Origin: an uncultured Ignatzschineria sp.
GTDB taxonomy: Bacteria > Pseudomonadota > Gammaproteobacteria > Cardiobacteriales > Wohlfahrtiimonadaceae
Length of the DNA stretch: 64,000 nt
Assembly (NCBI GenBank): GCA_945639195.1
Contig: CALZEE010000003.1
Coordinates: 1-64,000, forward strand
Direction: 5' to 3'
Shown: piece by piece, positions 18,138 through 50,425 of the stretch
Position numbering within the stretch: position 1 is the stretch's first letter
How the letters are laid out: each line of letters starts with the position of its first letter
Position numbers and translations under genes: made by a program
Notes under the pieces: generated by a model
What the model was told of the DNA's origin: nothing
The model's input: the letters and a program-made list of their open reading frames with translations, nothing else
Database searches by the model: none

Positions 18138-18977
18138 ATGAAAAATATTGTTGAAAAGTTTCTCAATGCGCCGCAAAAACGAATTGCCTTAATGGGCATG
18201 AGCGGTGTTGGTAAAACCCATCTTTCAAAGAAGCTCCCTCAAGCAGACTGGTTTCACTACTCTATTGATTACCGAATTGGCACTCGCCATTTAAGCGAAG
18301 AAGTACATGACTTTTTAACCGCGGAAGCAATTAAGCAACCCACCCTCGCTAAACTAATTAAAGAGGGCGCGATCTCTGTGCAGTCGCAGCTTTCTGTCGA
18401 TAATCTTGCGCCGCTTTCTGCCTATCTGGGCATGATGGGCGACGAAGCTCAGGGCGGCACATCGCTTGAGGTGTTTTTAGATCGCTTAGAGCGTCATCGC
18501 ATTGCCGAGATTAATGCCGTAAAAGATGTACCCTACTTTATCGATAAAGCGCAAAATCTCCTGGGCTACAATAACTTTATTGTTGATACCAGTGGCAGTT
18601 TTTGTGAGCTTCAAGATGAGGCAAGCTGGGAGCTCATTGGAAAATCGACCTTACTGGTCTATATCCGCGCTTCAGAAGAAGCCAAGAATTACGTCATTGA
18701 GCGGGCGCAAACGCATCCCAAACCGCTCTACTATCAAAAAGATTTCCTCTTGCCTCAAATTGAAATCTATATGCAAGAAAACAATCTTCAATCAGCCGCA
18801 CAAATTACCCCTTCTCACTTTACACGCTGGATCTTCCCTAAATTGATCGAGCACCGCGTGGGGCTCTATGAGATGATCGCAAATAAATATGGCGTCACGA
18901 TTGATGCCGAAGCGCTCTATCATGTAAAAGATCAGCAAGAATTTTTTGACTTAATTAAGGAGTCTGCGAATGTCTAA
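18138..18977 (+). CDS. P-loop ATPase / kinase-like protein of unknown role
   Basis: A 279-residue protein with an N-terminal Walker A GMSGVGKT (20-27) in the setting used by shikimate-kinase-like and small-molecule-kinase folds. A second cluster NNFIVDTSGSFCEL near residue 150 could be the Walker B/substrate region. I do not recognise a specific function. The stop overlaps the next gene by eight bases, so the two are translationally coupled; such ATPase plus Mth938-domain pairs suggest a shared but unknown task. No membrane segment or signal peptide is visible. Confidence 0.7.
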   Translation: MKNIVEKFLNAPQKRIALMGMSGVGKTHLSKKLPQADWFHYSIDYRIGTRHLSEEVHDFLTAEAIKQPTLAKLIKEGAISVQSQLSVDNLAPLSAYLGMMGDEAQGGTSLEVFLDRLERHRIAEINAVKDVPYFIDKAQNLLGYNNFIVDTSGSFCELQDEASWELIGKSTLLVYIRASEEAKNYVIERAQTHPKPLYYQKDFLLPQIEIYMQENNLQSAAQITPSHFTRWIFPKLIEHRVGLYEMIANKYGVTIDAEALYHVKDQQEFFDLIKESANV

Positions 18978-19389
18978 CAATGCTTCAAACGCGAATCCCG
19001 GTTCCACCATCAAACGTGAAACAACCGATAACCTCCATATTAAGAGCTATGCGCCGAACTTTTTCCGTCTCAATGATGATACTGAATGGGAAAATACCGC
19101 CATTGTGCTACAAAACAGAACAATCGAAACAGATGCTGCATTTGTCCCGCAAACTTTCGATGACCTCACTGAAGCACATTTCCAGAAATGGATTGAGCGC
19201 AAACCAACGGTTATTCTCATCGGTACCGGCAATAAGATGGAATTCCTCGCCCCTAAATGGCGCGCATTCTTCTATCAGCATGGCATCGGCATTGAGACAA
19301 TGGCAACAGAGTCATTAAGCCGTACTTTCGCGATTTTAGCTGCGGAAGATCGCAATGCACTCGGCGTGTTTTTCCCGATTCAGGAATAA
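18970..19389 (+). CDS. Mth938-domain (DUF498) protein
   Basis: A 139-residue protein of the Mth938/DUF498 family. The typical pattern is visible: SYAPNFFRLND near the start, then PTVILIGTGNKMEFLAPKWRAFF and a final segment where a short-lived motif (TMATESLSRTFAILAAEDR) closes the fold. Family members include NDUFAF3, a human complex I assembly factor, but the bacterial role is unclear. Notably the MidA methyltransferase, the bacterial relative of assembly factor NDUFAF7, lies elsewhere in this window. The gene ends before a strong terminator. Confidence 0.78.
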   Translation: MSNNASNANPGSTIKRETTDNLHIKSYAPNFFRLNDDTEWENTAIVLQNRTIETDAAFVPQTFDDLTEAHFQKWIERKPTVILIGTGNKMEFLAPKWRAFFYQHGIGIETMATESLSRTFAILAAEDRNALGVFFPIQE

Positions 19390-19450: not shown

Positions 19451-19487
19451 AGCCAAATATTGTGATTTTCAATTATGTCAGCCCAAT

Positions 19488-19740
19488 AAGAAAGGCACCC
19501 AGTCTTTCAACTGAGTGCCTGAATGCACGATCCATCGTGCGCTTTCATCCATGAAGAATCTCATCATTAGATTCTCATCTTCTTATTCAGTGGCGTCCTA
19601 CCTGCTCTCATCGTGAAAGCCTCCATTAGTATTCTTCCTTAACACATTCTCTGAATCTCTCTCCTTAGAACGAAGCATCATCCTTATCTCATCCGTGAAT
19701 TGAACTACTTCTATAGGATGAAAGAAGTTTACCAACACTC
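19488..19740 (-). ncRNA. CsrB/RsmZ-like regulatory sRNA, copy 1 (CsrA-sponge candidate)
   Basis: No ORF is convincing here. On the minus strand about nine GGA motifs appear within 250 nt, many as AAGGA, ATGGA or ACGGA in predicted loops (for example at 19727-19650 and near 19540). The RNA ends in a Rho-independent hairpin (GGCACTCAGT/ACTGGGTGCC, 19488-19523). CsrB, CsrC, RsmY and RsmZ RNAs have exactly this layout and bind the translational repressor CsrA/RsmA. A block with the minus-strand form GAGAGCAGGTAGGACGCCACTG is closely matched in the neighbouring RNA (copy 2). The 5' end is not determined; I place it below the shared promoter element at 19750-19771. Confidence 0.7.
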
Positions 19741-19749
19741 CTAAATGAT

Positions 19750-19771
19750 ATCCAATTTAAATTTTCAATGA
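19750..19771 (-). promoter_or_regulatory. Shared promoter element of sRNA copy 1
   Basis: On the minus strand this reads TCATTGAAAATTTAAATT followed by GGAT. The same 22-bp segment (one mismatch) occurs at the same place ahead of sRNA copy 2 (20148-20169), so it is likely a common promoter or activator site. Regulator identity is inference. Confidence 0.55.
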
Positions 19772-19893
19772 TTTAAATTAAAATACAATTAGATGAGAAC
19801 AAAAACAAATAAAAATAGACATAGAGCTGATAGTCGCTAAATGTAGCTGCCGAAATAGCTAGTAAATATGCCTTTACATAAATATAGGCAAGA

Positions 19894-20130
19894 AAAAGCC
19901 ACTAAGTAACCTTAGTGGCTTTTAATTTCGCCATCGTGGCAAATTTTCATCCTTGATGCATCATTCCATGACAACATGGCCTCATATCAGTGGCATCCTT
20001 GCCGCTCTCTATCCATAAAGAGTTGCGCTGATCCGTAGCGCGTTCTGAGCGTCAATCCATCGGCTGAGGCTGTATCCTGCTTCCCATCCCTGAGAAGTAT
20101 CATTCCTTGATACTATGTTGCCTATCGTAC
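19894..20130 (-). ncRNA. CsrB/RsmZ-like regulatory sRNA, copy 2 (CsrA-sponge candidate)
   Basis: On the minus strand about ten GGA motifs fall within 235 nt (AAGGA, GGGAT, AGGAT, ATGGA, ACGGA types), several between complementary flanks such as CATAGTATCAAGGAATGATAC, where GTATC and GATAC present AAGGA in a loop. It ends in a clean terminator, AAAGCCACTAAGG paired with CTTAGTGGCTTTTT (19893-19925). With copy 1 it forms a tandem pair 150 bp apart. This is the signature of CsrB/CsrC-type RNAs that sequester CsrA. The 5' end is set by the upstream promoter element and is approximate. Confidence 0.75.
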
Positions 20131-20186
20131 TTGTAAGTCATTTAAAAATCTAATTTAAATTTTCAATGACTTACAAACACTTACAA
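20131..20186 (-). promoter_or_regulatory. Promoter and GacA/UvrY-like inverted repeat of sRNA copy 2
   Basis: TTGTAAGTCATT (20131-20142) and AATGACTTACAA (20165-20176) form a perfect 12-bp inverted repeat, with a further CTTACAA at 20180-20186. The TGTAAG/CTTACA half-sites match those described for GacA/UvrY activator sites upstream of csrB/rsmZ genes. Between the arms lies the 22-bp element shared with copy 1 (20148-20169). Binding by a UvrY homologue is inference; no uvrY gene is in the window. Confidence 0.55.
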
Positions 20187-20200
20187 TGATGAGGCGATCA

Positions 20201-23200
20201 TTAGCTAATCTTGACGATTCTTGCAGGGATTCCTTGCCTTACAACTGCCCCTGAAGTCCAGTCTAACCAAGGTGCCGCGATCGGTCTTGATGGGTCAGCA
20301 ACAGCGAGGTCATTGAGGTTTAACCCACTGCCCACATGTTTACTGAATTCCATCGCAACGCCATCCACAATATGAGTTCTCGCCCCAACATCTTTACGAC
20401 CATAACCATGCTCGATCGCTAAAACGCCCTCTTTGACCCCATCAAGCACCATGATTTGTGCTTCTTCTGCCCCGTTTGGTGATTCAATGCGTACCATATC
20501 GCCATTGACGATATTAAATTTCTCCGCATCTTTTGTGTTAATTGCCACAAAGTTTGTCGGTTTAATCATTCGAAGTCGCAATGTTGAACCAGAAGTACTA
20601 CTCACAATATTTGATTTAAATGATGTGAGCGATAGTGGCCATTCCGCTTTCGGGAATCGCTCATCAACCGAGCTACCATCAGACATTCTTGGTGGGTAGT
20701 ACGTTGGCGTACCGCTGTAACGCTCACCATTTGCGAAGTGCTTATGCACCCCAACGGTCTCATTCCAGAGCTGTAATGTCGGTGCCCATTTACGGATCAT
20801 CTCATCTTCGCCCCAGCCGGTATTGTAATCTGCAAAGCGTCCACCGCGGGCAAAGACATAAGCCACGCGCATCTGCTCTTCAGGTTTCAAAACGGTTTCG
20901 ATCTGGTGCTTGATACGTTTAACGCCGGTTAATTCCATCTCTTCACGTGTTGATTCTGGCACAGGGCTACCATCAAACGCCATGTTTGCAGCGGCTCTTA
21001 GGTAGTAATCTTCGGCATTATGCACCGCATGATTTTTACCTTCAAAGTCTTTAATCGCATTCTCACCAAAGCCCGGCAAGCCCATCATTTTAGAGACTTC
21101 AATGAAGAAGGTTTCCATAGAGATCGGACGACCTTTCGCATCTTTATCAACTCGCGACTCTACAATCGGCCATCTTGCAGTAGAGGTTTTGAAAGGAACC
21201 CCTGCCCATGCGTTACCAAAGCCCCAGCTCTCAAAGTTATGCGTATCTGGCACAATGTAGTCTGCCATTGCCGTTGTTTCGTTGATGAAGGCATCAATCG
21301 CAACAAAGAGCGGTAATACTTTCGGATCTGCTAATTTATCCATGAGTAACTGTCTAAAGCCGGCAATCCCGTAAACAGGGTTTGTCATGTTACTGATCCA
21401 CGCTTTGAGCGGATACGGATCTGCGTTCAATGCTGAAATGAGCATTTCAGATGCTTGTCCACCGGCAAATGGATACCAAGGACGGCTCGCAGGATAAGGA
21501 TTCTCCCCACGTGCTTTCTTCTCTTTAAATTCTGTTGAAGATTCATAAGGACGTTTCGCACGGCCAATCATGATACCTTTTGGCTGAACCATCCCATCAA
21601 AGGTTTCAAAGTCGTAACGAGGACCCGGACCATAATCCGCGTATTTACCCCCGTTCACTTGCATTCCGCCTTTGTAGTTCATGTTTCCGATTAATACGTT
21701 TAGCGCTAAGATCGCCCATGTATTATAGAAACCGTTACCGCTCATCATCCCGCCATGGCTCACAACGGCAGCTTTATGCCCGTGATTGGTGAACTTCTTA
21801 GAAAGCCCTTCAATCGTTGCCACAGGAACTCCACAAGCGGCACTGTACTCTTCAAGTGTGTGTTTATCTGCAGAGCGTTTTAACATCGTGAAGCTTGAGG
21901 CAACGTCTACTTTTGTACCATCGGCAAGGGTAACTTCCCCTTCATGGTAAAGCGTTCCACGTGGCGCCACATTCACATCCGCAAGCGCACCCGTTGCTGC
22001 ATCAATTGTTAAGATTGGGCTCTCTGCACGTTCGCCCCCTTCAATATCTGCAAGGCGAAGGAATTGACCATAAAGCGGGCTATTCTCTTCAATAATCACT
22101 AAATGCGTCGCATTAGAGTGGCTGATCGCTTTCGCAGCTTTCATGCCCGCTTGCCCTGGAACTGTGAGGTAATTCTCATTGTAACGACGGTTATCGATAA
22201 TATAACGAATCATCGCCATCGCCATCGCTGAGTCCGTTCCCGGAAGAATCGGAATCCACGTGTTATTTTGCGTTGCCATGGTGTTTGTCATCGGCAAGCT
22301 TGGCGCAACCACTGCGTAACTAAACTCAGAGGCATCTTTGGTACGTGCATTCGCTAAGAGACGCGCCTGACGCTTAAAGGGGTTTCCAGATTGCGCAGGA
22401 GATGTCCCCATAAAGATCGCAAATTCTACGTTATCAAAGTCTGGTTTTGCGTGTGCGTTCTTGTTCATGTCATTCATGACCGCGCCAGAACCTAAACGAT
22501 ATGCCAATCCACAGTACGCACCATGCGCTGTGAAGTTACGGGTACCAAAGGCATTGTTCGTAAAGCGTTTTACGAGCGCTTCACGCCCTTCATTCCCGGC
22601 ATTTGACACTAATAACTGGTTCGCTTTTACGCCAAACTCAGGGTTTTTCGGATCAATCAAGGTATCAAGGTCACGGATATCTTTTAAGCCATCCACATGC
22701 CCTTCGCCAAAGAGATCACCACCGTTTACCACTTCTTCAATTAACTGCTCGAAGCTAATACGTTTCCACTTTCCTTCTCCACGTTTACCGACACGTTTTA
22801 AAGGAGAGAGTACGCGGTAAGGGCTCGCAACAGATTCCCCCATCTGCGCACCACGGGCACATGCGGTTGAGCGATCATTAATACCGCTGTCGCCCCCGAG
22901 TTTTACCCAAGCATCTGAGATCGGCATATCATAAGTATAATGCTCTTCGCTTGATAGCGGATGGTAAGGATTACCCGCAACACGTACGACTTCATTCTTC
23001 TCTTTATCAACGCGAACACGAATACCGCAAACCGTCCAGCAACCAAAGCATTGCGTATTAGACATCGTCTGTTTGTTATTGCCGACCCACTTGCCATCTT
23101 CAACGCGCCCTTCTACTTCTAACGCATTACCATAGATCGCATGCTCTGTCGGCTTTTCTGACGTTCCTTTCACAAGGCCAATCGCCATGTTTTTCGCAGT

Positions 23201-23380
23201 ATTACTATATCCTACCGCAAATGCCGCTAAGCCCCCGGCCGCTGCAACGCCTTTTACAATATTACGACGTTTACGAATCGCCGCTTCTTCTGGCGTATCT
23301 GCCATCTCTTCTGTGTTGAGATCTTTCATCTCATCGTTTTGATCGAGATCTTTATTCATTAATTTTTTTTCATCACTCAT
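20201..23380 (-). CDS. ttrA: Tetrathionate reductase catalytic subunit TtrA
   Basis: TtrA is a large molybdopterin-guanine-dinucleotide oxidoreductase (1059 residues) that reduces tetrathionate to thiosulfate at the periplasmic face. A twin-arginine signal (RKRRNIVKGVAAAGGLAAFAVG, about 37-58) directs Tat export. A Cys-rich [4Fe-4S] site begins QCFGCWTVCGIRV near residue 110, with STACARGAQM further on. HGAYCGLAYR near 285 probably supplies the molybdenum ligand Cys. It is the last gene of ttrB-ttrC-ttrA, 67 bp after ttrC with GAGGGAAAC before the ATG. The neighbouring TtrS/TtrR pair strongly supports this substrate over arsenate or thiosulfate, though related enzymes look similar. Confidence 0.86.
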   Translation of the reverse strand: MSDEKKLMNKDLDQNDEMKDLNTEEMADTPEEAAIRKRRNIVKGVAAAGGLAAFAVGYSNTAKNMAIGLVKGTSEKPTEHAIYGNALEVEGRVEDGKWVGNNKQTMSNTQCFGCWTVCGIRVRVDKEKNEVVRVAGNPYHPLSSEEHYTYDMPISDAWVKLGGDSGINDRSTACARGAQMGESVASPYRVLSPLKRVGKRGEGKWKRISFEQLIEEVVNGGDLFGEGHVDGLKDIRDLDTLIDPKNPEFGVKANQLLVSNAGNEGREALVKRFTNNAFGTRNFTAHGAYCGLAYRLGSGAVMNDMNKNAHAKPDFDNVEFAIFMGTSPAQSGNPFKRQARLLANARTKDASEFSYAVVAPSLPMTNTMATQNNTWIPILPGTDSAMAMAMIRYIIDNRRYNENYLTVPGQAGMKAAKAISHSNATHLVIIEENSPLYGQFLRLADIEGGERAESPILTIDAATGALADVNVAPRGTLYHEGEVTLADGTKVDVASSFTMLKRSADKHTLEEYSAACGVPVATIEGLSKKFTNHGHKAAVVSHGGMMSGNGFYNTWAILALNVLIGNMNYKGGMQVNGGKYADYGPGPRYDFETFDGMVQPKGIMIGRAKRPYESSTEFKEKKARGENPYPASRPWYPFAGGQASEMLISALNADPYPLKAWISNMTNPVYGIAGFRQLLMDKLADPKVLPLFVAIDAFINETTAMADYIVPDTHNFESWGFGNAWAGVPFKTSTARWPIVESRVDKDAKGRPISMETFFIEVSKMMGLPGFGENAIKDFEGKNHAVHNAEDYYLRAAANMAFDGSPVPESTREEMELTGVKRIKHQIETVLKPEEQMRVAYVFARGGRFADYNTGWGEDEMIRKWAPTLQLWNETVGVHKHFANGERYSGTPTYYPPRMSDGSSVDERFPKAEWPLSLTSFKSNIVSSTSGSTLRLRMIKPTNFVAINTKDAEKFNIVNGDMVRIESPNGAEEAQIMVLDGVKEGVLAIEHGYGRKDVGARTHIVDGVAMEFSKHVGSGLNLNDLAVADPSRPIAAPWLDWTSGAVVRQGIPARIVKIS

Positions 23381-25645: not shown

Positions 25646-27655
25646 ATGCAGATGTCGCCATGTTTAGTAAATCTCATTCGCCAGCTTCAAAAGCCCTTTC
25701 CGGCAATGGCCGCAATTACGGCGCGGCAGCGCGGGACAAGCACACCGATATTATCTCTACTTCTGTGTCTTATCATGCTCGTCATGACTACCGGTATCAG
25801 CCTTGCCGAAGCGCGCGTATTAAACGGCGATCAGCCGCTTCAACTTCAACCACAGCATCCACCTCAACATCATGTAACCCCGCAACCATCATCCTCAGCG
25901 CTTGAGATCTGCCTCCCTTTTGATAAAAAAACCACAAGTAAGCGCATCACAGTCGGCGTCTTAGCGCCTTATGGCGATACCGTTGCAGAAAAAGAGTGGT
26001 GCCCTTGGATTCAATCCTTAAACCACACCTTGCCGGATTATCACTTCATCTTAAAACCCCTACAAATTAACAATATTGAAGCCGAGGTTAATAGCGGCGC
26101 GATTGATCTTCTGCTCTCTCATCAAGGGCTATTTCTAAATCTTCAAACCGAAACGCCTATTCGTTGGGTGGCGAGCTTAGAGGAAAACATTCATCTTGAA
26201 AATAGTAATGCGCGCATTGGGAGCGCAATCTGGGTGAATGATGAAAGCCCCATCAAAACACTGCATGATCTACAAGGGAAGATCGTCAATGCGGTGAGCG
26301 TTAAAGCGCTAGGCGGCTTCCTCCTTGCCTATCATGAAATGATGATTCAAGATCCGTCGCTTCGTCGGCATGTTCAGTTTCAGTATCATGGCTATCCTAT
26401 CGAGACGCTCTTTGACACCTTAGCCGCGCACGAAACCGATGCAATTATTGTGCCAGCTTGCTTATTTGAACGATTGGAGCGTCAAGATATTCTCCCTGCC
26501 GGCAATTTCCGCTTATTAAACCCCAAAATTATCGATGATTTCCACTGCCAAACAAGCACCAACTTACTGCCGAGCTGGTCACTTGCGGCCCTTCCCTCGC
26601 TCGATAGCACTGCCGCTAAAGCTATTCAATCAGCGCTCTTTAGCACAACCGATCCGAATCTCCCCTCATGGCAATTGCCCTATACGCTTGCGGAGATCAA
26701 TCAGCTTCTATTTGATGTCAAAATTTATGAAGGCCAAGAGACACTCTTTGAAACGCTCTTTCGCCTCGCCGTGACCAATAAGATCTGGTTACTTTTCTTT
26801 GCCATCTTCTTACTTATCTTACTGGTGAACCATCTTTGGCTCTCTTACGCTGCGACAAAGCGCCGAAAAGAGCTTGAAACCGCCTATCAAACGATGCATA
26901 ACTACGAAGTAATGCTCTCAAAAGCTGATCGTATGAATATTCTAGGTGAGATGGCAAGTGGCATTGGGCATGAGCTCAATCAACCGCTCTCCACCATTCG
27001 AAATTATGCAGAAGGCAGTATGATGATTCTCAAAAAGGAGCAAGATCAGCATCCGCTCTTAACGCCTTTGCAGAAAATTAGCGAGCAAGTGACGCAGTGC
27101 CACAATATTATTAAAAACCTGCGTTCTTGGGCAAAACCCAAAGAGAGCTCTGTGCGTGAGGAGATTAATCTCAGGCTCTTCTTAGAGCGGATCATTGAGA
27201 TCACGCGCCTCAGAATTCAAGGTAACGTCAATATCACGGTGAATATTCCCGAGGATTTCACCATCGTTATTACGCCCTCAATCTTAGAGCAAGTCGTGGC
27301 AAACTGCCTGATGAACTCGGCGCAAGCTGGCGCGACAGAGATAGAAGTCCGCACCAAAATCTACCCACAATATGTCAAACTCTTCCTTTTTGATAATGGA
27401 CCAGGATTTGATGAAGGTGAACTTAATGCGCCCTTTGTCCCATTTAGAACCTCTAAAATCGATGGGCTAGGACTCGGGCTCGTAATCTGCCAACGCTTAA
27501 CAGAGCGGATGGAAGGAAAGCTACGAATTGCCAATCGCAAAGACGGTCAAAAAGGCGCAGCAGTACGGCTTATTCTCTCTCGAGAATTAACGCCGTCTAT
27601 CGCCGACAATCCGCAATCTAGCGAAGATTCAACAGAAAAACCCCCGAATCAATAG
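25646..27655 (+). CDS. ttrS: Tetrathionate sensor histidine kinase TtrS
   Basis: A 669-residue membrane sensor kinase. An N-terminal hydrophobic signal/anchor (LLLCLIMLVMTTGISLAEA, about 35-55) is followed by a periplasmic PhnD/TtrS-type binding domain (RITVGVLAPYGDTVAEKEW onwards, to about 370), one membrane segment IWLLFFAIFLLILLVNHLWL near 385, and the kinase core. The H-box GIGHELNQPLSTIRNY carries the phosphorylated His near 445, and FDNGPGFDEGEL plus GLGLGLVICQRL are N/G boxes. TtrS senses tetrathionate and phosphorylates TtrR. Two starts (25646 and 25652) share one weak GAGAG site. It is divergent from ttrBCA. Confidence 0.88.
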   Translation: MQMSPCLVNLIRQLQKPFPAMAAITARQRGTSTPILSLLLCLIMLVMTTGISLAEARVLNGDQPLQLQPQHPPQHHVTPQPSSSALEICLPFDKKTTSKRITVGVLAPYGDTVAEKEWCPWIQSLNHTLPDYHFILKPLQINNIEAEVNSGAIDLLLSHQGLFLNLQTETPIRWVASLEENIHLENSNARIGSAIWVNDESPIKTLHDLQGKIVNAVSVKALGGFLLAYHEMMIQDPSLRRHVQFQYHGYPIETLFDTLAAHETDAIIVPACLFERLERQDILPAGNFRLLNPKIIDDFHCQTSTNLLPSWSLAALPSLDSTAAKAIQSALFSTTDPNLPSWQLPYTLAEINQLLFDVKIYEGQETLFETLFRLAVTNKIWLLFFAIFLLILLVNHLWLSYAATKRRKELETAYQTMHNYEVMLSKADRMNILGEMASGIGHELNQPLSTIRNYAEGSMMILKKEQDQHPLLTPLQKISEQVTQCHNIIKNLRSWAKPKESSVREEINLRLFLERIIEITRLRIQGNVNITVNIPEDFTIVITPSILEQVVANCLMNSAQAGATEIEVRTKIYPQYVKLFLFDNGPGFDEGELNAPFVPFRTSKIDGLGLGLVICQRLTERMEGKLRIANRKDGQKGAAVRLILSRELTPSIADNPQSSEDSTEKPPNQ

Positions 27656-27781
27656 TAGCCGTAGATCAGATATCTGCGTACAATATTATCAGCCTCTGCG
27701 GCACTGACATTAGCACTGACATTGGCGCTGTCCGCTTTAGCTGAGTGACCTGCTTTACTGTTTTATCTTAAGGATCTTTTT

Positions 27782-28390
27782 ATGAAAACTCTCACTGTTC
27801 ATATTGTCGATGATGAACCTAGCGTTCGTGAATCTTGCGAGTTCTTAGTCTCAACGCTCAATTACCCAACACAGCTCTGGGAAGATGGACAAGCGTTTAT
27901 CGAAGGCGTCGATCTCTCAATGCCGGCAATTGCCATTGTTGACTTAAGAATGCCGCGACTCTCCGGCGATATGGTCATCAGTCAATTGCATCAACGCCAA
28001 AGCCCTATTGGCGCGATTATTCTGACGGGTCATGGAGAAGTTGTAATGGCCGTCAAGATGCTGAAAGAAGGCGCCATTGATTTTTTAGAAAAGCCCATCG
28101 AACTCTGCACGCTGATCTCTGCACTGAAACGTGCCGAAAAGATCACATTAGAGCGAGGGGAGAAAAATGCCGTTGTTGCCCGTTTTAATGCCCTATCAGA
28201 GCGAGAACAACAGATCTCCCTGCTCGTTTATGAGGGATTCACCAATAAAGAGATTGCCCATCAAGAAGCGATTTCTGTGCGAACCGTTGAAGTGCAACGC
28301 TCAAGTGCCATGAAAAAGCTGAAAACTGAGACCTTAGCGGAGTTTATCGCGACGCTCAATGAGATTTACCAATATCACGCAGCGCAATAA
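27782..28390 (+). CDS. ttrR: Tetrathionate response regulator TtrR (FixJ/LuxR type)
   Basis: A 202-residue response regulator. The receiver domain has the acidic pair DDE (10-12), phospho-acceptor D54 in VDLRMP, and the conserved Lys in FLEKP near 103. A LuxR-type helix-turn-helix follows (LSEREQQISLLVYEGFTNKEIAHQEAISVRTVEVQ, about 140-175). It follows ttrS by 126 bp and should activate ttrBCA. A weak hairpin AGCCA...TGGCT with a T-run at 28411-28436 is the likely terminator. Confidence 0.88.
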   Translation: MKTLTVHIVDDEPSVRESCEFLVSTLNYPTQLWEDGQAFIEGVDLSMPAIAIVDLRMPRLSGDMVISQLHQRQSPIGAIILTGHGEVVMAVKMLKEGAIDFLEKPIELCTLISALKRAEKITLERGEKNAVVARFNALSEREQQISLLVYEGFTNKEIAHQEAISVRTVEVQRSSAMKKLKTETLAEFIATLNEIYQYHAAQ

Positions 28391-50308: not shown

Positions 50309-50382
50309 TTTCCGCTCGCTTCAATCAAGCTTTCACTCATTTAATCTGGATTCATTACAATAATAAATCCAGATTGAAAAAC

Positions 50383-50425
50383 AAAAAAAGAAGCCCCTAA
50401 AATCATGTTAGGGGCTTCTTTTTTA
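50383..50425. terminator. Bidirectional terminator
   Basis: AAAAGAAGCCCCTAA pairs with TTAGGGGCTTCTTTT around a short loop with A/T-runs on both sides. It lies between the convergent MFS and Sel1-repeat genes and can serve both. Confidence 0.9.

Follow-up and report, generated by a model that had tools for sequence, protein, structure and literature searches.

In Escherichia coli, the CsrA-binding RNAs CsrB and CsrC carry 22 and 14 GGA motifs, respectively (PMC11882849), and in Pseudomonas brassicacearum and its relatives the comparable function is associated with the tandem, GacA-dependent rsmX-1/rsmX-2 (~110 nt) (PMC7911923). A further set, Pf1–Pf3 of Pseudoalteromonas fuliginea, was found by virtue of many GGA motifs, a promoter and a terminator; from among these, Pf3 has 9 GGA, and Pf2 and Pf3 are verified CsrA binders (PMC11882849). 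Both tandem Rsm sponges with a common upstream element (PMC7911923) and Csr small RNAs with around 9 GGA (PMC11882849) are, thus, already known. What is new in the locus described here is the presence of predicted members of this known kind in Ignatzschineria, and its interesting sides are the missing BarA–UvrY switch and the joint loss of the RNAs and csrA.

The Ignatzschineria pair resembles the enterobacterial CsrB/RsmB and CsrC RNAs in that its units are intergenic, place many GGA motifs in hairpin loops, end in an intrinsic terminator and lie in a genome with csrA; it differs from CsrB/CsrC in the shorter length of the units (~230 nt), their 8–10 GGA, their scores below the Rfam gathering threshold and the lack of a detectable BarA/UvrY. 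With rsmX-1/rsmX-2 (PMC7911923) it shares the adjacency of (here predicted) sponge genes of related sequence and a common upstream element, probably likewise an activating one, but its units are about twice as long, 61% alike and come without a detectable GacA. The signs by which the units were found are those of Pf1–Pf3; unlike Pf2 and Pf3, which occupy separate intergenic regions, they adjoin each other. Among the papers searched, none mentions both Ignatzschineria and CsrA, and a Csr circuit is here proposed for the genus.

Anatomy and motif content of the two units

The whole 64-kb stretch of DNA that was analysed (hereafter the window) has the order ttrA, unit 1, unit 2 along the minus strand, followed by a convergent gene of the DUF498 type:

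20201–23380, minus strand: ttrA (best NCBIfam model TtrA, 1555 bits versus a cut-off of 1750)
19889–20117, minus strand: unit 1, predicted CsrB-like small RNA of ~229 nt, 5' end placed from the -10
19987–20009, minus strand: internal block of unit 1 (GGA hairpin region), common to unit 2 (direct repeat D3)
19886–19923, minus strand: intrinsic terminator of unit 1, a perfect 13-bp stem (19894–19923) and a T-run
19488–19720, minus strand: unit 2, predicted CsrB-like small RNA of ~233 nt, 5' end placed from the -10
19587–19609, minus strand: internal block of unit 2, common to unit 1 (direct repeat)
19484–19520, minus strand: intrinsic terminator of unit 2, a 12-pair stem (19493–19520) and a T-run
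18970–19389, plus strand: DUF498 gene, convergent with units 1 and 2

An earlier, sequence-only reading of this DNA had proposed two minus-strand elements here with good terminators and no convincing ORF, and on each of these points the analysis agrees with it: no apparent protein gene lies between ttrA and the DUF498 gene, and the longest frame, of 46 aa with a GTG start, opens before the predicted 5' end of unit 2. The closest relatives of this ttrA bear the name Ignatzschineria (Gammaproteobacteria, Cardiobacteriales). Both units are intergenic and non-coding, and each has the sequence signs of its own promoter and intrinsic terminator. The internal block is indeed shared; at 23 nt and 83% identity, its description as nearly identical somewhat overstates the likeness.

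Unit 1 has 10 GGA and 8 ANGGA, whereas unit 2 has 8 GGA and 7 ANGGA, such that the "about ten GGA" attributed to each element is exact for the former and slightly generous for the latter. Across 12,756 overlapping 220-bp windows on both strands of the 64-kb window (mean 0.72 ANGGA, sd 0.90), these ANGGA counts are the two highest, the next best being 5. Dinucleotide shuffles reach them in 0 of 1000 cases for unit 1 and 1 of 1000 for unit 2; the plain GGA count of unit 2 taken alone is not unusual, being attained in 354 of 1000 shuffles. Neither unit was equalled in folding by any of 200 shuffles (MFE z-scores of -4.1 and -3.3), and hairpin loops hold 5 (unit 1) and 4 (unit 2) GGA versus ~0.9 in shuffles.

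Homologs in the ttrA slot and their promoters

One or two such RNAs occupy this slot in each of six Ignatzschineria genomes: in addition to the pair of the source genome (G000), G004, a second species, has a tandem pair of GGA-rich RNAs ~347 bp apart, and a single GGA-rich RNA occurs in each of G001 (L018), G002, G007 (L016) and G008. Pairwise identity among the RNAs ranges from 51 to 95%—around 51–63% for most copies and 75% for the G004 pair—with the GGA motifs kept. The eight RNAs were used to build a sequence-only model, which they match by construction; searched against whole genomes, it recovers two copies and no third in the source genome (next match E 0.15) and finds a partial match in G009 (E 5.9e-4).

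Certain other candidates were set aside. Weak model matches near csrA in G011 and G013 of the sister genus fall among the rpsP/rimM genes; G011 also has a GGA-rich stretch of 60 nt (L128), which lacks a good terminator and has no match in the near relative G013; and CsrB matches in G003 (L059) and G014 (L060) resemble coding sequence by eye.

The promoter elements of the source pair are as follows:

20147–20176, minus strand: promoter block of unit 1, TTGTAAGTCATTGAAAATTTAAATTAGATT, also upstream of the two G004 RNAs and, in a form with 2 differences, of the G008 RNA
20124–20129, minus strand: -10-like hexamer TACGAT of unit 1, 17 bases after TAGATT
19749–19778, minus strand: promoter block of unit 2, which keeps TCATTGAAAATTTAAATTGGAT without TTGTAAG
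19726–19731, minus strand: -10-like hexamer TAAACT of unit 2, offset from the block as in unit 1

The -35 position is occupied by TAGATT, the last hexamer of the block (20152–20147), in unit 1 and by TGGATA (19754–19749) in unit 2. Five promoters have a block of ~20–30 bp at a constant distance from the -10, with -10-like hexamers TACGAT, TAAACT, TTAAAT, TATGAT and TATGAT, each 17 bases past the hexamer at the -35 position. The form TTGTAAGTYATTGAAAATWTAAATTRG lies upstream of unit 1, both G004 RNAs and the G008 RNA, and just its ATTGAAAATTTAAATTGGAT part is retained by unit 2. The promoter stretch common to units 1 and 2 spans 40 nt (80% identity), and its core matches at 21 of 22 positions, so that the "nearly identical" of the sequence-only reading is somewhat too strong here as well. 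In G000 and G004, the block core is found at these promoters only, even with up to 2 mismatches allowed, and the sequences upstream of the G001, G002 and G007 RNAs differ from it. The block-bearing promoters have poor -35 hexamers, as would be expected if they depend on an activator, and the block next to the -35 is the predicted binding site for such an activator, probably one other than UvrY/GacA.

As the RNA always comes directly after ttrA in the genomes seen, and no terminator was detected in the interval from the stop of ttrA (20201) to unit 1, it might be supposed that unit 1 serves chiefly as a 3' untranslated region for the ttr operon, whose transcription would end at the terminator of the unit; with such read-through, tetrathionate respiration itself would release the CsrA sponge. 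This is improbable in view of the terminator-like hairpin and T-run seen by eye between ttrA and the RNA in G004, G007 and G008, the promoter block before unit 2 and the second G004 RNA, neither of which is preceded by a ttrA end, and the retention of ttrA without the RNAs in the csrA-less clade described below.

Joint distribution with csrA and the case for titration

A genome without csrA had been named in the sequence-only reading as a finding that would speak against it; the source genome encodes a canonical CsrA (58 aa, TTG start) downstream of trmD. The gene is present in six of the nine Ignatzschineria genomes (G000, G001, G002, G004, G007 and G008), and the same six carry the RNAs. Both are missing in the other three, G003, G005 and G006, where trmD is followed on the same contig by a presumed glnA, named by its likeness to that of the source genome, with no csrA between them. 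Since these three form one clade in the TrmD tree (99/99 support), the pattern points to a single joint loss of two unlinked loci, which is suggestive rather than a statistical proof. It offers a clean evolutionary case, with csrA and the predicted sponges missing together in one clade. The csrA-positive sister-genus genomes G011 and G013 have no recognisable RNA, an absence that may reflect divergence; in the remaining genomes of the family csrA was not found, and the RNA model gives weak matches only.

The ttrA slot of G003 and G005 is occupied by other repeats. More generally in the csrA-less clade, repeats around TTGCCGGAGATCACC fill the region that follows ttrA or lies near the DUF498 gene (L014 5950–7120, L015 9300–9800 and L051 5000–5500).

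Among the Rfam families, CsrB (RF00018) matches both units best, scoring 24.9 and 23.8 bits where the gathering score is 71 (E-values of 8.5e-5 and 1.8e-4 in a 901-base search, and of 0.006 and 0.013 when the whole window is searched). The comparison that the sequence-only reading had proposed returns CsrB at scores far below its threshold, and the units are therefore not formal members of RF00018; they look built to work like CsrB RNAs. Three of the relative RNAs give weak CsrB or RsmZ matches, all similarly under the gathering scores.

A CsrB-like pair predicted to titrate CsrA, as originally proposed, is the best explanation: the units are very probably two tandem, separately promoted and terminated RNAs of the CsrB/RsmZ class that would sequester CsrA. 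The ANGGA motifs in the hairpin loops of each RNA would bind CsrA dimers; by the established action of CsrB/RsmZ, CsrA held on the RNAs would leave less of it on mRNA leaders and free its targets, such that a rise in the RNAs would lower CsrA activity. Counted against this explanation are the sub-gathering scores, the plain GGA count of unit 2, the lack of BarA/UvrY, the joint loss counting as a single event on the tree, and the csrA-positive G011 and G013, which show no recognisable RNA.

The weak Rfam scores might speak for non-coding RNAs with a main role other than CsrA titration, e.g., GGA-rich base-pairing regulators. The enrichment of ANGGA and its placement in loops, the drift of most copies to ~51–63% identity while GGA is kept, and the joint presence and absence with csrA argue against such a role, which appears marginally less probable still than a ttr untranslated region. 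Finally, that the units are functionless, purine-rich intergenic DNA arising by chance, for which the plain GGA count of unit 2 might be cited, is highly implausible against their conservation in the same slot of five other genomes, the promoter register, the terminators, the folding and the joint loss with csrA.

The upstream switch

The search for uvrY/gacA that had been suggested as a check on the sponge interpretation came out negative: the UvrY/GacA and BarA models stay under their cut-offs throughout the family's genomes, each of them passing in one control genome, and the best UvrY score in the source genome, whose assembly is 98.98% complete, is 40 bits versus 280. The implied upstream switch is, therefore, probably not the usual one. 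The upstream palindrome of UvrY, TGTAAGN6CTTACA (PMC4682653), is likewise found before neither unit, and its 29 matches in the window (3 or fewer mismatches) compare with 26 by chance; TGTAAG half-sites are present before unit 1. Neither by orthologs nor by palindrome do the units, thus, fall among the Csr small RNAs regulated by BarA–UvrY (GacS–GacA).

TtrS- and TtrR-like two-component genes lie beside ttr (25646–28390, plus strand), both under the NCBIfam cut-offs; TtrR as the activator is unsupported because the window has no further copy of the block around the ttr genes. Another candidate regulator is a NarL-type protein of the source genome (C10; L043 1468–2085, plus strand), whose receiver domain by eye seems to be without the usual phosphorylated aspartate. 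One possibility, put forward tentatively, is that the sponges were retained but rewired, with BarA–UvrY gone and another regulator (perhaps TtrS–TtrR or an orphan NarL-type protein) driving both copies via the new block. If so, Csr control would be tied to another signal, and the genus is in any event a setting for asking how Csr small RNAs are driven where BarA–UvrY is absent.

Elsewhere in the window, positions 50339–50424 (plus strand) give a sub-threshold match to the Rfam threonine operon leader (37.1 bits versus 55), possibly an attenuator.
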